This document shows, one piece after another, positions 25,720 through 37,898 of a DNA stretch of 64,000 bases (position 1 is its first letter; each line of letters begins with the position of its first letter). Origin of the DNA: Burkholderiales bacterium (GTDB lineage: Bacteria; Pseudomonadota; Gammaproteobacteria; Burkholderiales; Burkholderiaceae_C); assembly GCA_028868995.1 (NCBI GenBank), contig JAGWTH010000001.1:62001-126000 (forward strand). Reading direction: 5' to 3'. Under the pieces are notes generated by a model. That model did not search any database. It was not told the origin of the DNA and was given only the letters and a program-made list of their open reading frames with translations. A program made the translations under genes and the position numbers.

Positions 25720-28658
25720 TCACGATGTCGCAGCACGTCGGGGAGTCGGTGGCAGCCGCAGAAGCGATTGCGCATACTTCTCGACACTGAAACTGAAGGT
25801 TCCACGAAAATTGATGTGGCTGGAGTGCGCCGGTCCCATGCGCCGCAACCAGGCCTCGTCGATCTCCATGCCGCCCTTGCGCAGTCGCTCCACAACGTCA
25901 TTCATGCGGGCGGTATTCCAAGCGATAACGATGTTGGTCAGCAGGGCGTGCGAACCCGAGATCGCCTTCATTTCGTCGCGCCTGCGTCCGCGCTCGGTCG
26001 GGAGCTTGCCGGTATAGACCACCCGCTGCAGCTGGTGGACCGACTCGCCCCGGGCGAGCAGTGTATGAATCTCGCGGCGGAAGTCCTCGATGGTGACGTA
26101 GTCGCACAAGAAAATGCTTCTCAGCAACCGTCCAAGATGTTCGGCAGCCCGGTACGCCGGATCGCCCTGGGCGGCGCTGCTCAGAAAACGCAGAGCCAAG
26201 TCGGCGCCGATCTTGCCCATCCGAATGGAAGCGATCAGCCGCAGGAGTTCATCCCAGCCGTCGCGAATCGCCTTGCGCGAGAGGCGCTTGACCGTCACCC
26301 GCTCGATGTTCTCCGGCACGGCGAATCCGGCCGGCAGGTAGAGTTTTCTCTCGGCCAGGTCGCGCAGTCGCGGGCACAGGTCGAACCCAAGCAGCTTGGC
26401 CACCGCCATGGCCCCATTGGTATAGCCGTGCGTGTCGACCGCCAGCAGGGACAGACGAATCCTGTCCTGGCTGTGGTTGTGCTGCTCCACGCCTTCGATC
26501 GCGACGCCGGCCTGGCGTTCGTTGAGCACGATCGGCTGGTCGTAGACGATGCCCCAGCGATCCAACAGGTGGGTGTATATGCCCGCCGCGTAGGTACGCC
26601 GGCGCGGGTCCACGCGAGCGCTCCACAGGTGCCGCGACGCGTCCAGCGACATCATGTCGGCCGAGGCCTTCTCGCCGCTGCCCCAGTGGGCGGCCAGGGG
26701 GACCCGGCCCTGGAACTCGACCACCCGCTCGTTGGCGCGCCGCAACCGGCCATGGGTTTCCAACGCCCGCATGGCCACCGACACCTGCGCCGTTTCAACG
26801 CCCGGGATCATCGATGCAGCCGTCTTGGCGTCGATGTCGGTACCGTGTGCCAGCAGCGCCGCATACAGGGCAAGCAGTTGCGCCACGGTGTCGGCTCGAT
26901 GTCCGAGCAGCACCTCGCTGACGCTGCACAGCGCGTCCATTTCCAGCAGGATGTCGGGGAATTGCATGTCGCCGATCAACTGATAAATCAGGTCGCGCAT
27001 ACGGCGCGGCTCGCCGTCATCAGGCAAGGCAGTGACCGCCGGCAGATGCAGCATGCCGTCGGCGCCGATCTCGATCTTGCCTTTCTTGCAGGCCTCGGAC
27101 ACCGCAGCGACGCCGACCTTCAGATTGTCCAAGCGGGTTCAATGAATTCGTCTGCCGTGCGCGGCAAACCCAGCATGGCGATGTACGCGTCGCGCTCGCG
27201 CGCCCATTCTTGCGGCGAAATCAGCATCTGATCGCGCTGCCGGAAACTCAGCGAATGATCGATCCACACTTTGCCGCTGCGCAGGCTCTTGCGCAGGGAC
27301 ATCATGGTGCACGCTGCAAAGGCCTGCAGGCCGTTCTTGGGATTGGCGTCATGGACAAGATCGTGCCAAGCCGCACCCACCTCGGGAACCCGGAAGTCCG
27401 GCGGCAATTCCGTCGCTTTCATCCCTTGAAGATCGCGCCAGGCAGTCCACCGCGCAAAACCGGCGTCGTCGGCCTGCCCGTCAAATTCGAGGCCCTCCAA
27501 GCCACCCAGAAACGCCTTGACCCGCTGCTGGTCCGCCGCCAGGGCCCGGCGGACATGGGACAGGAAGCTGCCCTGGGGCGTGTCCAGCAGATCCGACAAG
27601 AGCTGATCGGCCTCCAGGCAGCGCACGCGCCAGGTTTTGGTCTCGTCACGCAGGACCTCCCTGGCCTTGAGCGCCTGCTGGCGAGTGGCGCTTTCTGATC
27701 GACCCCGGCTGGTCTGGGCTTTCTGCGCGGCGTCGCGAAACAGCTTCTGGCTGCGCCGGCTGCCTTGCTGTATCGCCAGGTCGGTGAGTTCGAGCAGGGT
27801 CATGCGCAGAAAGCACACCAGTTCGATGGTCTGTGTCGTGTCCTTGATTTCTTTCGACTTCGCGGGCCGGCGCGCTTGCATCTGCTGGGCGTAGGCGCGT
27901 TGCTTGGGTATGGCGATGCTATCGAGTGGCCACTCGTGTGCCGTCAGGCCCTTGAGATACCGGATCTTTTCGAGAACTTCGGCCAGGCTGGTCGGACCGT
28001 GGCGCCTTGACGGCGTCTTGAGCCATTCGAGATGGGTGGCAGATCCGTCAGCGCGCAGGCGGTAGGCGGACTCGCGGCAGCTGTTGAGCGTGGCCGGCGG
28101 CACGGCTTTGCTGATGGTCTGCAAAATCTCGGCTTCGGTCGCGGCGAACGCGGCGCGCGCCCAGTCCTGCACGCGTCGCGGGCCGGGAATGAGGATGCGA
28201 TGCTCGTACAGCCAGTGGCAAGCCGCAGTGGCGAGATCGTCGGCGTGGGAGGCTTCGGCGGCCTGCAGCATGAGCAGGGCGACTAACTGCGCCTCGGACT
28301 GTTCGTCCAGGTCCTTGAGGCCCAGGTGTTTTTTCGCCCACAGCTGGTGTTTGTAAAGCGTCTGGCTGCGCTGGTAGATCGAGCGCAGGCTGGCGATGGT
28401 GGGCGCCGCCGTTCTGAAGGTCTCGCCGGCGTAGCGAAGCAGATTTCGGGGCAATACCGTGGCGCCGTCCAATGGCCGGCCCACGGCTCGCAGGTAGAGA
28501 ACCATCAACGCCGCCGACGCGCGGTGGTCGGAGCGAAACTGCGCGCCTACTGCCTTGATGTCAGCTTCGGTGAGCTGGAAAAACTGGTTCAGGTCGAAGT
28601 CGGACAGGCGGTTCGACAGGCCCTCCTGGCCAACGAAGCGAAGGGCGTAGGTTGACAT
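25720..28658 (-). pseudogene. tnpA: Tn3-family transposase TnpA, interrupted by one frameshift
   Basis: The first 512 codons (28658 to about 27120) run from MSTYALRFVGQEGLSNR to EFIEPAWTI and stop; a second frame (27132 to 25720, 470 residues) starts within the overlap at LDNLKVGVAAVSE and carries the DDE domain (LLAVDTHGYTNGAM, then the C-terminal ISGSHALLTNIVIAWNT and HINFRGTFSF). A single missing base around 27125-27130 explains the break. Together they give the usual length of about 980 residues. No resolvase is present. Confidence 0.88.
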
Positions 28659-28774
28659 GGCCGACGTCGAGCGGGTGTGGTGGGACAAGTGTACGACGCC
28701 CATTGAGTGTGCCTAACCGGCGGTTTTCCATCGATCAACTCGGTTGCAAGCCGCGCCCGCAAACGGTTTGCGGG

Positions 28775-29502: not shown

Positions 29503-31182
29503 GTGAGCGAGCCCAAGCTACATCCCCGCATCCCGTTCGAGGTGGACGGCATCCAGGTGAACCACTGCAAGACGCCGACATGCCCAAATTTCGGCGTGTC
29601 GGCGGCGCAAGCGCCTGAGGGGAAGGTCAACGCGTCCCAGGACCCGTACCGGGTGATCGGGGGCCGTCGCAGCCTGCGGCAGCTCACCTGCCACTTCTGC
29701 CAGCGCAGTTCCGCGCTGCGCAGCAACCTGGCGATCGCCCAGGAGGCAACACGCCTCGACCCGATCCGCTGGCGCGCCGCACGCACGACCTGTGTCACGC
29801 CTGGCTGCGCCGCCTTCGGCTTGGCTGTGGCGGATCACCCGCAGCACTACCAAAAGCACGGTCACACCGCCGCGGGCGAGCCGCGCTACCGCTGCAAGGC
29901 CTGCCGCGCGACGCTCACTGGCGGCTCGACCCTGCGCACGCAGAAGCGGCCAGAGCTGAACGTCGAGGTGCTGAAGCTGGTGGTGAACAAGGTGCCAATG
30001 CGCCGCATCTGCGAGGTGCTGGATCTCAACCCGGCCACCCTCTACAGCAAGCTGGGCTACCTGTCCGAGTTGGCCAGCGACTTCAGCGCGCGCCATGAGC
30101 GCCGCATCGCCTCCGGTGAGGTGCCGCTGGCGCGCGCCTACATCAGTGTCGACCGACAGGACCACGTGCTGAACTGGGGCAGCCAGCTCGATCGCCGCTA
30201 CACCGCAGTGGGCGCGGTTGGCGCGGCCGAGAATGAATCCGGCTACGTGCTGGCCATGCAGCTGAACTTCGACCCCGACAGCGATCCCGAGGACGTGGAA
30301 GCCGACGCCATCGAGCGCGGCGACTACCTGGTGCCGCCGGTCCATCGCCACTACGCGCGCCTGTGGCTGCGCCGCGACTACCAGGAGGTCGACGCGCCGG
30401 AGGAGGACGAAGCCGCTTTGCCTGCCGATCTCAAGGCCCCCAGCGGCGGGATGCAGGTGAAGCTGGAGGTGCTGTACTTCGCCCTCATGGTGCACTTGAA
30501 GCGGATGCTGCATCCGGTGGAGCGGGTGCGCCTCTTCGTGGACCGAGACCCCGCCCTCGATACCGCGTGCCTGGCTGCATTTCGAGAGGAGATCGTCGCG
30601 CGGCGCTGCGACGTGTTCCTGATCAAGACGGGCAAGGACCTTTCAGTGGACAAGAAGAAGTTGCTGATCGCGCAGGTCGGCCGCGATCTGGAGCGCTTCG
30701 CGGCGCGCGCCGGTGTGCCGGCGGGCGAATCGGTGCGGCTGCACTACGTGGTCGACCAACTGCGCCGGCACCGGGCCCGCAACGCGGCAGGCTGGTTCGA
30801 GTACCCGCTGTCCGACATGGCCGACCCGAGCAAGGAGCTGCTGTACCTGACCGATTTCGGCGACATGGAGCTGGAGCACCTGGCGCGGCTGCACATGCGA
30901 GCCTCCTTGCGCGGCATCGACAAGTTCTTCATGCAGGTGCGCCGGCGCCTGTCGGTGCTGGAGCGGCCATTGCAGACCCGCAACAACGCCCAGCGCGGAT
31001 GGCATGGGTACTCGGCGTACAGCCCGCTGGTCGTCCAGCAGCTGTTGAACATCTTCCGGGCGTACTACAACTACTGCCTGCCCGGGCAGGACGGCAAGAC
31101 GCCGGCCATGCGTCTGGGCCTGACCGGTCAGCCGGTCTCGCTGGACGTGCTGTCCTCGCTGCGCCCGCGCGGCATCAAGTAG
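29503..31182 (+). CDS. Tandem zinc-finger, DDE transposase-like protein (possibly domesticated)
   Basis: 559 residues from a GTG start. Paired cysteines occur as HCKTPTCPNFGV with LTCHFCQRSS, and TTCVTPGCAAFGL with YRCKACRATL: two repeats of an IS1-type N-terminal zinc-binding module. A helix-turn-helix follows (KVPMRRICEVLDLNPATLYSKL), then an RNase H-like stretch with acidic residues in AYISVDRQDHVLNWG and RLFVDRDPALD. No terminal inverted repeats were seen around it. Its end overlaps the convergent WYL gene by 55 bp. It could be a solo transposase or a repurposed nuclease. Confidence 0.75.
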   Translation: MSEPKLHPRIPFEVDGIQVNHCKTPTCPNFGVSAAQAPEGKVNASQDPYRVIGGRRSLRQLTCHFCQRSSALRSNLAIAQEATRLDPIRWRAARTTCVTPGCAAFGLAVADHPQHYQKHGHTAAGEPRYRCKACRATLTGGSTLRTQKRPELNVEVLKLVVNKVPMRRICEVLDLNPATLYSKLGYLSELASDFSARHERRIASGEVPLARAYISVDRQDHVLNWGSQLDRRYTAVGAVGAAENESGYVLAMQLNFDPDSDPEDVEADAIERGDYLVPPVHRHYARLWLRRDYQEVDAPEEDEAALPADLKAPSGGMQVKLEVLYFALMVHLKRMLHPVERVRLFVDRDPALDTACLAAFREEIVARRCDVFLIKTGKDLSVDKKKLLIAQVGRDLERFAARAGVPAGESVRLHYVVDQLRRHRARNAAGWFEYPLSDMADPSKELLYLTDFGDMELEHLARLHMRASLRGIDKFFMQVRRRLSVLERPLQTRNNAQRGWHGYSAYSPLVVQQLLNIFRAYYNYCLPGQDGKTPAMRLGLTGQPVSLDVLSSLRPRGIK

Positions 31183-32039
31183 CGCTGGGCGAGCGCCGGC
31201 TCCTTCAGCTCGATCAGGCGCTGCGGGTCCGACTTCAGGTCCAGCCGGTGCAGGTAGATGAAGTAGCCGACCAGGCACTCGCGCATGCGCGCCTTCCACA
31301 CCCAGCCGCGGCCGGCCTGGGCCATTCCGAATTCGCGGGCCACCACTTCGGCTTGGCTGGCCGACAGCGTTCGGCTCGGGACAACATCAACCTCCACCCA
31401 GTGCGACCAGCCCTTGTCGTCGTCTGGTTGGCGCGGCGCGGGCACCTCGAGCGCCGCGGTCGACAGGATGCGCTGCAGCACCAGGTCGATGAAGGCGTCA
31501 CGGCTTTCGTCATAAGCGCGGGCGTGCCACCGCGTGCCGCTGAACAGCAGGGCATGCGGCCAAACCTTGCGCGGGCTGGGCTCGGCGCGGCTGCGCGACT
31601 GGTAGCTCACCGTCAGGCCGGATTGTGAGGAGATGGCACGGGTGACGGCATTCAGGATCACCGCCTCGAGCCGGCCGCGCGGCGGCGGCACCGCGTCCGT
31701 GGTCACCGAGGTCGCCCCGGCCGGCGCGATCGCACCGTCGTTTTGCTCGGCCTGCGCACGCAGCAGCGCCAGGTATTCCTCGGCTGAGCCCTTGCCGATG
31801 CGCGGCTTGAACTTGCGGGTGGGGCGGTAGGCGCGGGCCGTCTCGTCGTACTGCAGGTTGCCTGGAAAGGCGTCCTTGTACAGCCGGAAGTCTTTGGTGA
31901 CGTGGTTTTCGCTGACGTTGAACGCGCTGGACACGCGCGGGCGGTCGACGCGGCCCTCCCAGAAGGCCACCGACTCAATGAAAGTCAGGCGCTGCCGCTG
32001 TGCGAAGCGCAGCTTGTCGACGTCGAAACCCGTGGTCAT
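31128..32039 (-). CDS. WYL-domain transcriptional regulator
   Basis: 303 residues. An N-terminal winged helix (RLTFIESVAFWEGRVDRPRVSS, AFNVSENHVTKDFRLYK) is followed by a WYL-like domain (GLTVSYQSRS, KVWPHALLFSGTRWHARAYDES) and a C-terminal extension. Such proteins (BrxR, CapW types) repress phage-defence operons. It is divergent from the methyltransferase gene with 93 bp between starts, fitting autoregulation and control of that gene. Confidence 0.87.
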   Translation of the reverse strand: MTTGFDVDKLRFAQRQRLTFIESVAFWEGRVDRPRVSSAFNVSENHVTKDFRLYKDAFPGNLQYDETARAYRPTRKFKPRIGKGSAEEYLALLRAQAEQNDGAIAPAGATSVTTDAVPPPRGRLEAVILNAVTRAISSQSGLTVSYQSRSRAEPSPRKVWPHALLFSGTRWHARAYDESRDAFIDLVLQRILSTAALEVPAPRQPDDDKGWSHWVEVDVVPSRTLSASQAEVVAREFGMAQAGRGWVWKARMRECLVGYFIYLHRLDLKSDPQRLIELKEPALAQRYLMPRGRSEDSTSSETG

Positions 32040-32063: not shown

Positions 32064-32132
32064 CCTACTTGTTTCTGGTGGGCCACGCAATATGATTGCC
32101 TCCGGGCGAAGTTGCTGGTATGGTGGAGGCAT

Positions 32133-35100
32133 ATGAAAGCGGCGATCGACGACTGGCTGCAAACGCTGGGCTATGACGGCTCGGTGGGCGTCGTGCATCG
32201 CGCCGCTGGCGACGTGCGCCCGGACCATCCGTACGCGCGCGAGATCGAGCTGATGCTCCGGGCCCCGGGCGCGGCCGCCGCAGCGGTGTTCGAGGTCGAC
32301 CGCGTTCCCGCCGTGTGCTTCGTGGAGCCGGATGCCAGCCAACCGCTGGACGCTCCGTTCATCGACGAGGTGCGCAGCAGGATCTGGAACCAGAACCTGG
32401 TGTCCATCGTGGTGATCGTGCGCGGCCAGGAAGCGGTCCCGTATCCGGCACCGCGCGACCTGCCGGCCGACTCGCCGCTTTCCCTCGCGCAGGCCAGTGC
32501 CGAGGGGCCGTTCTCCGCGAACGAGGTGGCACGCGGCGACATCGCCAATCGCCTGCCCGAATGGTTCAACCGCTCGCACCGGGTCGACCGCGTCATGCAG
32601 GACAACCTGGACGTCGCGGTGGAGACCTTGAAGGGTTTGAAGCTGTCCCAGGAACAGGCGCAGCTGCTGCTGGGCAAGTGCATCTTCGTGTCCTTCCTGG
32701 AGCACCGCGGGATGGTGGGCGAGCACTACCGCGAGCGCCACAAGGTTGGTCAGCTGCTCGACCTGCTGCACGCCGGCGACGGCCGCGGGCTGGACCGCCT
32801 TTTCCGACGGCTCAAGAGCGACTTCAACGGCGACTTGCTGGAGATCGAAGGCGGCTCGAACGTCGACTGGCGCACTCTGCCCGCGAAGGTTCTGGACCTG
32901 CTCGCGCAGTTTCTGCTGCACACGCGCCTGCGCGACCAGCAGCGCTCGCTCTGGCCCTACGACTTCAACTACATCCCGGTGGAGTTGCTGTCCGGCATCT
33001 ACGAAACCTTCCTGGGCGGCGCGCAGCGCGAGATGGGGGCCTTCTACACGCCGCGCCATTTGGCTGCGCTGGCTGTGGACGAAGCGTTCCGCGGCATCGA
33101 GAAACCCTGGCAAGAGGTGGTGCTGGATGGCGCCTGCGGCAGCGGAATCCTGCTCACCAGCGCCTACCGCCGCATGCTGGGCGCGCGCCGCGCCAGCCTG
33201 CAGCGCGAGCTTCGCTACGAGGAACGCCAGGACGTGCTGCTGACCGGGATCCGGGGCGGCGACACCTCCTCGGCCGCGTGCAAGGTCACGGCCTTCAGCC
33301 TGTACTTGGCGCTGCTGGAAGACCTGGCTCCCAGTGACATCGCCCGCCTGCAGGAAGACCAGGAGGTCAAGCTGCCGCCGCTGATGGGCAAAGTGCTAAC
33401 GCGCGACGGCCAGGGCGACTTCTTTTCTGCGCGCAACGCGGTGGCCCGGCCCGGCGGCGCCACCATCTTGCTGTCCAATCCGCCCTGGTTCGAGCCGAGA
33501 GGGGAGGACGAGCGCTCCTACGAACGCTGGTGGATGCAGCGCTTCAACACGCCACTGCCGCGCCGCCAGATCGCGCTGGCCTTCGCTCGCCGGGCGAGCG
33601 AGGTGGTGAATGTGGGTGGCCGCATCTGTCTGCTACTGCCGGTCTCCACCTTGGGCGCGGCGTCCGCCGGCGCCTACCTCAAGGACTGGTTCCGCGAGGT
33701 CGCGCCGCAGCGCCTGATCAACCTCGCGGACATGCGCTTCGTGCTGTTCGAAGGCGCGGACCACCCAACCCTGGTCTTCACCGGCGAGCGCCGCAGCGAG
33801 GACGCCCAGCGCATCCCGCCGCGCGAGAGCTTCGAGTACCTGGTGCCCAAGGCGGACATCTCGCTGGCGTTCGGCCGCCTGACCGCGCACAGCTTCGACC
33901 GCAAGCGCCTGCACACCCTGACGGCGGCCGACGACCCGGAGGTGCTGCGCACCTACTTCTGGGGCACGGAGCTGGACGAGTCGCTGATCGCCCGGCTGCG
34001 CCTGTACGGCACCATCGAGGACCAGTCGCGCGGTCCCAAGGCGCGCTTCGTGATCTGCAAGGGCTTCCACCGCCTGGACTCGAGCAAGGAGCCGTCCAGC
34101 TCGAAGCCGCTGCACAAGTACAAATTCCTGAGCACGGCGATCGGCGCGACCCGCTTCCCGCGTGACCGCATGTTCGTGCACCACCGCGACCTGGAAGACT
34201 TCCCGGCCAAGGACATGCCGCGCGTGGCCGACTTCGGCTCGGCCGGCGGGCAGGCGTTCGAGGGCGTGCGCGTGCTGTTCCCGGACGGCGCGCACAACCA
34301 CACGCTGGAAGTGCGGGCCTGCTACAGCGACAAGCCGTTCTGCTTCATGCAGAGCGTGGGCGCGATCGTCGACAAAGAACGCGACAGCGATCTCATGCTG
34401 TTCCTGACGGCCTACTTGCGTTCCAAGCTGGCGCGCTACTTGCTCTTCTACACGTCCTTCTCGCTCACCATGGAGCGGCCCCACGTGAAGCTGCGCGAGA
34501 TCGAGAAGCTGCCCTTCCTGACTCCGGAGCGGCACAAGAATCCCTCGCGAGCCCGCGGCATCGTCAAGCACGTGGCCGAAGTGCTCAAGCCCTTCCAGCA
34601 ACTGCGCTCGGTCGAGGGCAACGAGGACTGGACGCGCGCGCGCGCCGAACTGGACGAACTGGTGTTCGACTACTTCGAACTGTCGGCGACAGAGCGCACG
34701 GTGGTGAGCGACACCTGCGACTTCATCATCCCCAGTCGCCTGCCGCGCAGCCTGCAGCGCCTGCGCCTGCAACTGTTTCGCCCCCCCGCGGCCACCGAGT
34801 ACGGGACCTACGCGCGGCTGCTGCGCGACGAGCTGGAGACCTGGCGCGTGCGGCTGCACGGCGAGGGTCAGTTCGAGGTGGAGCTCAGCCGCCCGAAAGC
34901 GGCCCAGCCCGGCACCATGGGCGTGGTCCGCATTGGCCTCTCCGCTGGGCGGCCCAAGCGGGCGGGAACGCCGGCGGCGGTGGAACACGTGCTGCAGCAG
35001 CTGCGGGGTGACGACGCCTTCCCGCAGGTCGGCGGCGAAGGCCTGACCGTGGCCTCTGACCTGCTGCTGTTCCACGGCGGCGACTACTACTTCGTCAAGC

Positions 35101-35192
35101 CGCTGGTGCGCCGCCTCTGGCTGGCCACTGCGGCGGCCCAGGATGCCTGGCGCATCGTCCAGACCGTGCGCCAAGGCGCCCCCATCCAGTAA
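32133..35192 (+). CDS. Large N6-adenine DNA methyltransferase (Eco57I/type IIG-like)
   Basis: 1019 residues; ATG with GGAGG 5 nt upstream. The catalytic centre includes GAFYTPRHLAALAV, VLDGACGSGILL (SAM motif I) and the N6-adenine motif LLSNPPWFEP (NPPW). The C-terminal half with FICKGFHRL-type and KYKFLSTAIGATRFPRDR segments looks like a TaqI/Eco57I-type target-recognition region. The first 130 residues are a separate module (AREIELMLRAP, AVFEVDRVPAVCFVEPD) without a clear nuclease motif. It heads a three-gene run and lies opposite a WYL regulator, so it is probably part of a restriction or other defence system (inference). Confidence 0.88.
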   Translation: MKAAIDDWLQTLGYDGSVGVVHRAAGDVRPDHPYAREIELMLRAPGAAAAAVFEVDRVPAVCFVEPDASQPLDAPFIDEVRSRIWNQNLVSIVVIVRGQEAVPYPAPRDLPADSPLSLAQASAEGPFSANEVARGDIANRLPEWFNRSHRVDRVMQDNLDVAVETLKGLKLSQEQAQLLLGKCIFVSFLEHRGMVGEHYRERHKVGQLLDLLHAGDGRGLDRLFRRLKSDFNGDLLEIEGGSNVDWRTLPAKVLDLLAQFLLHTRLRDQQRSLWPYDFNYIPVELLSGIYETFLGGAQREMGAFYTPRHLAALAVDEAFRGIEKPWQEVVLDGACGSGILLTSAYRRMLGARRASLQRELRYEERQDVLLTGIRGGDTSSAACKVTAFSLYLALLEDLAPSDIARLQEDQEVKLPPLMGKVLTRDGQGDFFSARNAVARPGGATILLSNPPWFEPRGEDERSYERWWMQRFNTPLPRRQIALAFARRASEVVNVGGRICLLLPVSTLGAASAGAYLKDWFREVAPQRLINLADMRFVLFEGADHPTLVFTGERRSEDAQRIPPRESFEYLVPKADISLAFGRLTAHSFDRKRLHTLTAADDPEVLRTYFWGTELDESLIARLRLYGTIEDQSRGPKARFVICKGFHRLDSSKEPSSSKPLHKYKFLSTAIGATRFPRDRMFVHHRDLEDFPAKDMPRVADFGSAGGQAFEGVRVLFPDGAHNHTLEVRACYSDKPFCFMQSVGAIVDKERDSDLMLFLTAYLRSKLARYLLFYTSFSLTMERPHVKLREIEKLPFLTPERHKNPSRARGIVKHVAEVLKPFQQLRSVEGNEDWTRARAELDELVFDYFELSATERTVVSDTCDFIIPSRLPRSLQRLRLQLFRPPAATEYGTYARLLRDELETWRVRLHGEGQFEVELSRPKAAQPGTMGVVRIGLSAGRPKRAGTPAAVEHVLQQLRGDDAFPQVGGEGLTVASDLLLFHGGDYYFVKPLVRRLWLATAAAQDAWRIVQTVRQGAPIQ

Positions 35193-35900
35193 ATGAAGGC
35201 ACCGGCGCGCTACCACCAGGTTCTCTCCGACAACCGCTGGCAAGCCGCCTTCGGCCGCCAAAGCACCGTCGAACAGGTGATGGCCTATGTGATTGCCCAT
35301 TGGCAGGAGCTGCAGGCCAACCCGCCGGCGGACATGCACTTCGGCAACGCCGAGCCCAAGATCACCCAGTACTTCGGCCACTCGCTGCGCAAGAACGCAA
35401 TGCGCAACGGCATCACGGGCCTCTTTTCTCCAGAAGCGGTGCAGGCCGACGTGGACGAGGCCAAGAAGGTGCTGGAAGCGCGCGGACGCTCGGACATCAG
35501 CTACTTCAGCGATCGCACCGACCCACCGCTGGACTTCGTGCTCGAGTTCAAGAAGATGAAGCTCAAGCCGGGGGGCAACCAGTCGCGTCTGGCCTATTGC
35601 AAGGACGGCGTCGTGCGCTTCGTGGAGGCCATCTACGCCCGCGACTCGGACTTCGGCTTCATGGTGGGCCTGGTGGAGAAGCCCGAGCATGTGAAGCCGG
35701 TGGCCGACGCGCTTGTGCGGGCGATCCAGCAGCCGGACATGGTGCGCATGTTGCGGATGATCCGCCACCCGGACGGCACCGCCGTCACGGTCAAGCCTCT
35801 GAAGTTCCAGCAGTCGGGGTTCGAGACGCGGCACGCACGCGATCACGTGCCCCGGCCAGATGTGCTGCTCGGCCATCTGGTGTTTGCCCATCTCGCCTGA
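35193..35900 (+). CDS. Unknown protein with PD-(D/E)XK-like motif, coupled to the methyltransferase
   Basis: 235 residues; the ATG directly follows the methyltransferase stop (TAAATG). Not recognised by family. SDISYFSDRTDPPLDFVLEFKKMKL contains acidic residues (D101, D110, D114) followed by E118-F-K120, a pattern like the PD-(D/E)XK nuclease core in adjacent strands. The rest is mostly helical with conserved-looking KITQYFGHSLRKNAMRNG near residue 57. A restriction nuclease partner is the best guess; unproven. Confidence 0.75.
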   Translation: MKAPARYHQVLSDNRWQAAFGRQSTVEQVMAYVIAHWQELQANPPADMHFGNAEPKITQYFGHSLRKNAMRNGITGLFSPEAVQADVDEAKKVLEARGRSDISYFSDRTDPPLDFVLEFKKMKLKPGGNQSRLAYCKDGVVRFVEAIYARDSDFGFMVGLVEKPEHVKPVADALVRAIQQPDMVRMLRMIRHPDGTAVTVKPLKFQQSGFETRHARDHVPRPDVLLGHLVFAHLA

Positions 35901-35908
35901 AGTCAGCG

Positions 35909-36403
35909 ATGCCGCGGCGGCGCTGGACACCCGGTGACCCGCTGGCCATCGAGCTCTATGCGTTGCTGGCCGAACACCTCTTTTCTCCCATGGGCCGCGA
36001 GGCGCAGTTGCAGCTTGCGTCGCTGCTGAGAGAGCGCGGTTTCACGGTTTCGCGCGAGGTGAAGGTGCCCGGCTATCGCCGTGTGCCGGCCGAGGGCAAG
36101 AAGCGCGGGAAGATTGGCCGCATCGACCTATTGGCGATTCGTGGTCCGGTGCGGGTGGGCATCGAGATCGACTCGTGGCGCACGCCCAAGACAAAGTCAG
36201 TGCTGAAGCTGCTCGCATTCGCGGACCTGACACACCGGATCGTGCTGCTCAATCACGCGCCGGGGTTGTGGGGTGCCGGCGTCAGCCTGCCCACGGGCGT
36301 GGACCACCTCGCTGGCGGCCTTGACTTGGTGTTGCACCTGGACGTGCTCCCGCTGACCGATTCCGATCGCGTGAGTGGCAGCGCTGCATCGTGGAATCAT
36401 TGA
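35909..36403 (+). CDS. Small putative PD-(D/E)XK-family protein
   Basis: 164 residues, 8 nt after the previous gene. GKIGRIDLLAIRGPVRVGIEIDSWRTPKTKSVLKL has D73, then E86-I-D88 and K94/K96, resembling nuclease-like proteins with a GRIDLxA...IExD...KKS pattern. The N-terminal part (FSPMGREAQLQLASLLRERGFTVSREVKV) resembles the helix-strand that precedes such cores. Role unknown; likely same operon as the methyltransferase. Confidence 0.68.
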   Translation: MPRRRWTPGDPLAIELYALLAEHLFSPMGREAQLQLASLLRERGFTVSREVKVPGYRRVPAEGKKRGKIGRIDLLAIRGPVRVGIEIDSWRTPKTKSVLKLLAFADLTHRIVLLNHAPGLWGAGVSLPTGVDHLAGGLDLVLHLDVLPLTDSDRVSGSAASWNH

Positions 36404-36827: not shown

Positions 36828-37898
36828 TCAGGACGGTGATGCGGCAGCTTCCTTGTTCAGCGCAGCTTCCAGGAGTGAGATTTCCGACAGCACATCGGCC
36901 AGCGCAGGCACGTCACCGAAGATCATGGCGGCCATGGCCTCGTAGTCCTTTGCCAGCTGCGAGCGCATCGCTTCGTCGGGCACGAGCGTGAAACCGCCGG
37001 CGGCCGCGGTCTCGAGACCCAAATCCGGGCTGCCGAAAAACATGCGCGCTTGTCGTGCGCAGTCCGCGGCCAGCGCTTGGTCGGCGCGCCATGCGTGGCC
37101 GGTGTCCGCCTGCATCAGCCGGTACACGTCGTAATAGTGGCGCGAAACGCGCTGGCCACCATGCCGCAGTTCGCCGCGCGTGGCGTGCCATTGGCGCAGG
37201 CCGTGGAGGATCATCACCTTGTCCCAGAAGGTGCGCTCGGGGCGAACCGTGGTGATGTTGGCCACCTGCAGGTTCAGGTGTGGCAGGTCTTGAGCCACGT
37301 AAGGTGTGACCGATGCCGAGACATGCGGGTCCAGTGCTGACTTTGCGCCCGACTCGATCTTCACGGCAGAGCGGATGTAGTCGCCTGGCTTGGGTTGCAC
37401 CGCTGCCGCCGGATACCAGAACAGGAGGCTCTGACCGTCCTTGTCATCCGGGTCCATTTCCAGCTTGAATTGCCCTTCGGGAATCGCTGTGGCGGCGATC
37501 CCCGCGAGTTGCTCGCGCAAGGGGCCTGCGATGTACTGCTGGCAGGCGTCGCGGATTTCCTCCAGGCGCGCGCGGCGCTTCTTGCCGCTCAAGGCCTCCA
37601 GCTCTTCGACCTCGACGGGCTGGCCCAGGTCCTGCCGAAACACAGTGATGTCGATGTCCTCGGAAAACCGCGAGATCAACCCGAAGGCCTTGGACAGGGA
37701 CGTGCCGCCTTTGAACAGAAGGCGCGGCCCACCGGCCTGCAGGCCGTTGAAAAGCGCATCGAGCACCCATCCGACCCAGAAGTCCTTCTCGACGTTCTGG
37801 ACCGGGGTGCCCAGGCGCGTGGCGGCGCCGACGAACAGATCGCGCCGCTCCTGCTCGCTGGCGGCGATGACGGTGTTGAAGTCGGCGTTCATCGCCAT
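36828..37898 (-). CDS. abiEii: AbiEii/AbiGii-family nucleotidyltransferase toxin
   Basis: 356 residues. RLLFKGGTSLSKAFGLISRFSEDIDI carries the nucleotidyltransferase signature (GGTSLSK, SEDID). Members are toxins of type IV-like AbiE systems that transfer nucleotides and block growth during phage infection. The ATG lies 1 nt after the antitoxin stop; this start was preferred to an upstream frame that overlaps abiEi. Confidence 0.9.
   Translation of the reverse strand: MAMNADFNTVIAASEQERRDLFVGAATRLGTPVQNVEKDFWVGWVLDALFNGLQAGGPRLLFKGGTSLSKAFGLISRFSEDIDITVFRQDLGQPVEVEELEALSGKKRRARLEEIRDACQQYIAGPLREQLAGIAATAIPEGQFKLEMDPDDKDGQSLLFWYPAAAVQPKPGDYIRSAVKIESGAKSALDPHVSASVTPYVAQDLPHLNLQVANITTVRPERTFWDKVMILHGLRQWHATRGELRHGGQRVSRHYYDVYRLMQADTGHAWRADQALAADCARQARMFFGSPDLGLETAAAGGFTLVPDEAMRSQLAKDYEAMAAMIFGDVPALADVLSEISLLEAALNKEAAASPS

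Follow-up and report, generated by a model that had tools for sequence, protein, structure and literature searches.

Organization of the locus

We analysed a stretch of 64,000 nucleotides from a Burkholderiales bacterium (GenBank assembly GCA_028868995.1, contig JAGWTH010000001.1, positions 62,001 to 126,000 of the forward strand), called the window throughout. In it, a gene for a large N6-adenine DNA methyltransferase is followed directly by open reading frame 2 (ORF2), the gene for a predicted nuclease. Judged from sequence and structure models, the two are probably an active and conserved two-gene restriction-modification module. The methyltransferase stop and the ORF2 start are contiguous (TAAATG at 35190-35195), ORF3 follows ORF2 after 8 bases and a WYL regulator gene lies divergently in front (Table 1).

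Motif I of the methyltransferase, DGACGSG, occupies residues 332-338 and NPPW occupies residues 449-452. ORF2 carries E118-F-K120, and ORF3 carries D73 and E86-x-D88. The genes, the TAAATG junction and these residues all lie where a first reading, made from the DNA letters alone (the sequence-only reading), had put them; a PTH2-like gene (ORF4) and a 559-residue transposase-like gene had gone unmentioned. G+C content by codon position is typical of real genes across the locus, ORF3 and ORF4 included. Because of this, and because the catalytic residues of ORF2 are invariant (see below), we regard the genes as more than chance frames. The sequence-only reading had proposed a candidate undescribed cassette of one methyltransferase and two nucleases under WYL control. 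The methyltransferase and the predicted ORF2 nuclease are supported; the two-nuclease cassette is not.

Table 1. Features in and around the module, with positions counted from the first base of the window
Feature	Position	Strand	Basis or remark
Tn3-type transposase, two overlapping frames (DUF4158 part, DDE part)	25720-28703	-	
Zinc-ribbon, transposase-like protein, 559 residues	29503-31182	+	No Pfam family above threshold
CapW/BrxR-family WYL regulator, 303 residues; probable repressor; divergent from the operon	31128-32039	-	Pfam WYL, 46.9 bits
Possible -35, TTGTTT	32069-32074		By eye against the consensus
Candidate operator, CACGCAAT-ATG-ATTGCCTC	32084-32102	.	Overlaps the possible -10
Possible -10, TATGAT	32091-32096		By eye against the consensus
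Gamma-class N6-adenine DNA methyltransferase, 1019 residues, own target-recognition region (predicted)	32133-35192	+	Pfam N6_Mtase; PADLOC PDLC03623, 745 bits
ORF2: predicted PD-(D/E)XK nuclease, 235 residues, constant methyltransferase partner	35193-35900	+	AlphaFold2 model and VIA-align; residues; synteny
ORF3: ancillary gene, 164 residues, possible PD-(D/E)XK-like protein, outside the conserved unit	35909-36403	+	
ORF4: PTH2-like protein, 105 residues	36419-36736	+	Pfam, 23.5 bits against a threshold of 23
AbiEii	36831-37898	-	Library scan (Pfam, PADLOC)

ORF2 is a predicted PD-(D/E)XK nuclease

The ORF2 protein of the window has no match in Pfam, PADLOC or NCBIfam. Ten ORF2 members compared with Pfam and PADLOC gave nothing but one chance Pfam row (E 0.17); the NCBIfam scan covered the window protein. 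A sequence-profile search of ORF2 against solved structures gave nothing beyond rows that we put down to chance, with protein A constructs at the top.

We built an AlphaFold2 model from seven sequences (mean predicted local distance difference test score, pLDDT, 67.5). The model runs through a helix (54-72), strands (82-122), a second helix (132-145) and a further strand (154-161), the predicted alpha-beta-beta-beta-alpha-beta core of the PD-(D/E)XK superfamily. VIA-align placed it on BamHI with Z 8.3 over 145 residues (root-mean-square deviation 4.0). OkrAI (7.8), McrC (7.6), Can2 (7.1), MunI (6.1), SwaI (5.8) and NucC (5.7) followed, values in a range under 8 that, the tool warns, can be accidental; Card1 is also among the rows. 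Going by their titles, we take the majority of the 50 rows to be restriction-fold nucleases.

Residues E54, D101, E118, K120, Y135, F143, M157, H214 and H228 are identical in all 39 aligned ORF2 proteins, which include the window's, form 34 clusters below 80% identity and span 214-256 residues; L082 and L013 are two records of one lineage. The family thus carries, in its sequence, the D...ExK signature of PD-(D/E)XK nucleases. Because the VIA-align rows agree with the invariant residues, we accept the assignment to this superfamily, and the nuclease that the sequence-only reading had guessed at is supported by the structure model, the structural alignments and a triad intact in 39/39 proteins.

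Past the nuclease core, the invariant H214 and H228 are joined by R216 (37/39) within residues 210-228 (window 35820-35876). Plasmid records label ORF2 homologues as hypothetical proteins, and several (L006, L013, L082) as "Fis family transcriptional regulator", which is probably a misannotation.

The methyltransferase has no conserved nuclease residues at its N-terminus

Over residues 6-1014, the methyltransferase matches the PADLOC model "Type IIG restriction enzyme-methyltransferase" (PDLC03623, 745 bits), and the Pfam scan gave N6_Mtase. Its AlphaFold2 model was built from eight sequences and has a mean pLDDT of 69, with low confidence in much of the recognition region (639-749). The model aligned with CamA (Z 23.6; residues 304-850), M.EcoKI (21.7), M.BseCI (20.4; residues 296-855), BrxX (19.1), DrdV (18.7) and MmeI (18.6), and also with BsaXI; the top Foldseek match was the Type IIG enzyme BpuSI. 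D332, G336, G338, N449 and P451 are invariant in an alignment of 30 methyltransferases, the most distant of which are about 22-25% identical to the window protein. These features of sequence and model place the enzyme among the gamma-class adenine methyltransferases that carry their own recognition region. A search of a phage collection gave 0 methyltransferase matches at E 1e-5.

Type IIG enzymes are described, in PMC3874165, as gamma-methyltransferases with a DNA-cleavage domain at the N-terminus of the same chain. The 30 aligned methyltransferases have no conserved catalytic residues there. Between residues 1 and 150, the only columns conserved at 70% or more are L12, G13, A51, V52, P59, W85, N86 and L116. 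No acidic or lysine column reaches 70% in residues 1-125, and aspartate and glutamate combined reach 60% or more only in columns 26 and 146 of the first 150. In ten of the 30 proteins, residues 1-160 contain a loose D..(E/D)xK, at scattered positions that we take to reflect chance. A profile of the N-terminus matched neither ORF2 nor the N-termini of two apparent fusion proteins (see below). The modelled N-terminal topology resembles a degenerate nuclease fold in a way that is suggestive only, and we do not claim it as one.

The methyltransferase and nuclease genes are constantly paired

The nuclease gene lies immediately downstream of the methyltransferase gene in 39 of 40 loci. These are the window, its closest relative in Curvibacter (L001), 20 plasmid loci, six IMG/VR contigs and twelve other genomes. 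The plasmid loci comprise 15 taken initially and five added in a search for counter-examples, with 21 of 52 matching plasmid records opened; H10, a repeat of the H20 lineage, was kept out of the count. One nuclease gene, in L022, is cut short close to the contig end and was counted as paired. The conserved synteny expected of the cassette is therefore real for the methyltransferase and ORF2, and fails for ORF3.

Searches from either side gave the same picture. A broad nuclease profile matched in seven of 398 Pseudomonadota genomes, and a methyltransferase profile (E <= 1e-20) in seven of 399 genomes of the order, the window included in each case. The methyltransferase gene was directly upstream in 7/7 of the former and a PD-(D/E)XK gene directly downstream in 7/7 of the latter; the partner in L041, missed by the nuclease profile, was recognised on reading and then by alignment. 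On plasmids, all 17 ORF2 matches adjoin a methyltransferase match.

Two distant relatives from the same genus (L005/L076 and L004/L075) match in the methyltransferase core only and have, by eye, an N-terminal D..ExK. No partner nuclease gene lies behind either (n = 2). They are apparently true fusions and serve as a reciprocal control for the pairing.

Across 26 loci, the identity matrices of the methyltransferase and ORF2 correlate (Spearman 0.50, 0 of 1000 permutations), so the pair has travelled together. The correlations of ORF2 with single methyltransferase segments, from 0.39 to 0.51, are too even for an interface to be named. Between the window and L001, the DNA is 83% identical from the transposase-like gene through the end of ORF2.

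Nuclease genes persist beside broken methyltransferases

Both plasmid pRSB223 (L008) and Rhizobium gallicum (L010) combine a methyltransferase whose reading frame is broken with a full-length nuclease gene that keeps the whole triad. The Pseudosulfitobacter plasmids L013 and L082 lack the catalytic half of the methyltransferase and again retain a full-length nuclease gene with the full triad. The same half-gene is present in all 12 matching Pseudosulfitobacter plasmid records, two of which were opened, and because it is common to 12 records the L013 form is unlikely to be a sequencing error. An intact self-sufficient restriction enzyme would hardly be tolerated in these three lineages. The persistence of the nuclease genes thus suggests that the nuclease probably acts only together with the methyltransferase.

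The regulator varies between loci

In a phmmer search, the divergent WYL protein matched the solved CapW (E 3e-32, residues 8-257) and BrxR (E 6.7e-27). The match spans the winged-helix and WYL parts, which assigns the protein, by homology, to the CapW/BrxR type. A WYL gene occupies the same position in L001 and L042 (35%), and a fragment does so in L022. Among 25 loci scanned, 15 have a homologous regulator beside the pair: WYL in two, MerR-like in L006, L007, L009, L010, L024, L047 and L050, and a small family named after L011 and L012 in those two loci and in L026, L043, L044 and L048. L013 retains a MerR fragment. The remaining scanned loci had no match to the regulator queries, L020 matching its own query only; L052 and L080 have an annotated XRE regulator. 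Since different regulator families stand beside the pair across loci, the regulator is exchangeable. The proposed WYL control thus survives as a CapW/BrxR-type gene in front of the operon, one local variant and not a fixed feature.

The intergenic region of L001 has, across its likely -10, an inverted repeat of 8+8 bases without mismatch, which 4 of 500 shuffles equalled. The block is conserved in the window, where six of eight pairs match, a level that 327 of 500 shuffles reached and that is not significant alone. In published work on BrxR (PMC9122601), the protein is described as binding to inverted repeats that lie downstream of the predicted -10. Regulators of the CapW/BrxR type are said to control defence genes that are toxic or kill the host.

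A proposed nuclease acting in trans with the methyltransferase

Taken together, these results make it likely that the two genes form a restriction-modification unit, with a nuclease that is either dependent on the methyltransferase or self-sufficient. We lean, with some reserve, towards the dependent form, in which the nuclease acts in trans. The C-terminal half of the methyltransferase would recognise a DNA sequence, where the enzyme would methylate an adenine and so protect the host, and the 235-residue PD-(D/E)XK protein would be the restriction nuclease. Most likely, the nuclease would bind the methyltransferase, or a methyltransferase stalled on an unmethylated site, and cut only in that complex, presumably as a defence against phages. 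The pair would then correspond to a Type IIG enzyme in two pieces, its nuclease supplied by a gene of its own and not as an N-terminal domain. Repression of the pair would come from the divergent CapW/BrxR-type WYL protein in the window and, at other loci, from other small regulators.

Several observations weigh against a nuclease of this kind. The confidence of the ORF2 model is moderate, unrelated Rep15/Rab rows reach Z 5.5 in its VIA-align list, and Foldseek alone found nothing at E <= 0.001; its best row was BstEII (9e-3), with many DNA polymerase lambda rows below. In L021, the sole unpaired locus, the methyltransferase shares 61% identity with that of the window, breaks off near residue 905 and has lost its partner. 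The broken methyltransferases may also have other explanations: the split in L008 could leave a functional two-piece enzyme, the frame breaks in L010 could be sequencing errors, and another methyltransferase in those hosts could cover for the broken ones, or the nuclease could be silent there. Finally, the target-recognition region is no more variable than the remainder of the protein in most close pairs, a pattern unlike that of systems in which the methyltransferase leads the nuclease to new targets. We had considered a hypervariable recognition region as proof of shared specificity and rejected it, since such hypervariability is mostly absent; only the group of L043, L044 and L045 leans that way.

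That last pattern, together with the observed co-divergence of the recognition region and ORF2, would be expected if the methyltransferase and an orthodox Type II enzyme were both locked to one site. ORF2 would then recognise the site of the methyltransferase unaided. Its BamHI-like size and fold suit a self-sufficient enzyme too, which also counts against dependence, and 214-256 residues leave room for recognition elements of its own. We nevertheless consider this explanation rather unlikely, given the intact nuclease genes beside frame-broken (L008, L010) or half-deleted (L013 lineage) methyltransferases and the divergence between L043 and L044, whose recognition regions are 53% identical whereas their ORF2 proteins are 71% identical. 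Those tolerated nucleases would also suit a scheme in which the methyltransferase provides a mark on DNA and ORF2 responds to modification or to infection, as a Type IV-like or suicidal nuclease rather than a classical restriction enzyme. McrC, Can2, Card1 and NucC among the VIA-align rows point the same way, as does a repressor in front whose class is tied to host-killing or toxic defence genes. However, no second sensing domain was recognised in ORF2, and a nuclease that always accompanies a methyltransferase usually points to restriction-modification; such a modification-dependent or triggered nuclease seems improbable to us. We give least credence, and very little, to the possibility implied by the PADLOC name, that the methyltransferase is by itself a complete Type IIG enzyme and ORF2 an accessory. 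The full-length match to the Type IIG model and the BpuSI match agree with it. Yet residues 1-125 have no conserved acidic or lysine columns, whereas the two apparent fusions have D..ExK, the ORF2 triad is intact, and ORF2 is never missing beside a full-length methyltransferase of the family in the loci examined.

Relation to known systems

The trans-acting reading sets the pair between several known systems. With Type IIG enzymes (PDLC03623; Eco57I, MmeI, BpuSI, DrdV) it shares a gamma N6-adenine methyltransferase of about 1000 residues with a helical linker and its own recognition region; unlike them, it lacks conserved catalytic residues in the N-terminal part, and the predicted nuclease is a separate downstream gene. 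As in Type I systems, the methyltransferase core aligns with HsdM (M.EcoKI) and the nuclease is a separate subunit, but the conserved unit has two genes, without an ATP-dependent translocase or a separate HsdS, and a nuclease of 214-256 residues. Orthodox Type II systems of the BamHI type likewise have two separate genes, and the ORF2 model is nearest to BamHI and OkrAI; here, however, the nuclease persists beside broken methyltransferases and the methyltransferase is of the large Type IIG/BrxX-like kind.

BREX offers a further parallel in PglX/BrxX, with which the methyltransferase model aligned over 523 residues, and in its BrxR-type WYL regulator. According to PMC12707154, PglX too was once listed as Type IIG. 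Unlike in BREX, the PglX matches of the methyltransferase are partial and weak, and neither HsdR, HsdS, PglZ, BrxC nor another BREX core gene was found among the window proteins scanned, 11 with Pfam and six with PADLOC. The sequence-only reading is thus supported in seeing no partner from BREX, DISARM or Type I/III systems, as far as the neighbouring proteins scanned show. Resemblance to MAD2 of the MADS system is limited to a partial similarity of the methyltransferase core, with 21.4 bits to the MAD2 equivalog, whose NCBIfam cut-off is 720.

A distinct restriction-modification architecture on Pseudomonadota plasmids and islands, with a nuclease-less Type IIG-like methyltransferase and a constant PD-(D/E)XK subunit in trans, is thus a plausible if tentative proposal. 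It would be intermediate between Type I, whose nuclease is a separate subunit, and Type IIG, whose nuclease is fused, and some of the enzymes now listed as "Type IIG" would be misassigned. The locus had been called undescribed. This does not apply to the methyltransferase alone, already modelled in PADLOC as Type IIG; it applies to the nuclease family, for which the searched copies of Pfam, NCBIfam and PADLOC have no entry, and to the constant pairing, as no methyltransferase with a separate nuclease of this kind is named in the open-licence literature searched. In PADLOC, the first gene by itself stands for a complete Type IIG enzyme. If the nuclease is a separate gene, then Type IIG counts, restriction prediction from methylomes and the list of plasmid defence genes would need correction. 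A published model (PMC6158711) derives Type IIG through fusion of a nuclease and a methyltransferase, and the pair would then be the natural unfused state of that model.

Genes around the module

ORF3 has weak library matches to Cas4 (E 0.013), Hjc (E 0.18) and MTES_1575 (E 0.25) and may be nuclease-like in sequence. We rejected it as a conserved component: it has 0 plasmid matches at E 1e-5, marginal matches in three other genomes of the 399 of the order and none in viral contigs, in a search that finds close relatives only. In L001, ORF3 is reduced to 51 alignable bases past ORF2, a remnant which indicates that the pair is kept while ORF3 decays. The second nuclease of the proposed cassette is not supported by these results.

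ORF4, behind ORF3 and beside AbiE, matches the solved protein AF2095 (E 7.7e-5) and was discarded as a component for want of a plasmid match. We likewise set aside the 559-residue transposase-like gene, which is rare in relatives and of whose plasmid relatives the four examined, out of 125 records matched, lie in other surroundings. It stands beside the pair in the window and in L001, and a 38% identical relative adjoins the pair in L046. In both the window and L001 the WYL gene and this gene overlap at their 3' ends, with 55 shared bases in the window. On plasmids, the neighbours of the pair include AbiE and a caspase-family gene (L052), SIR2 (L055 and L079) and AbiH (L057).

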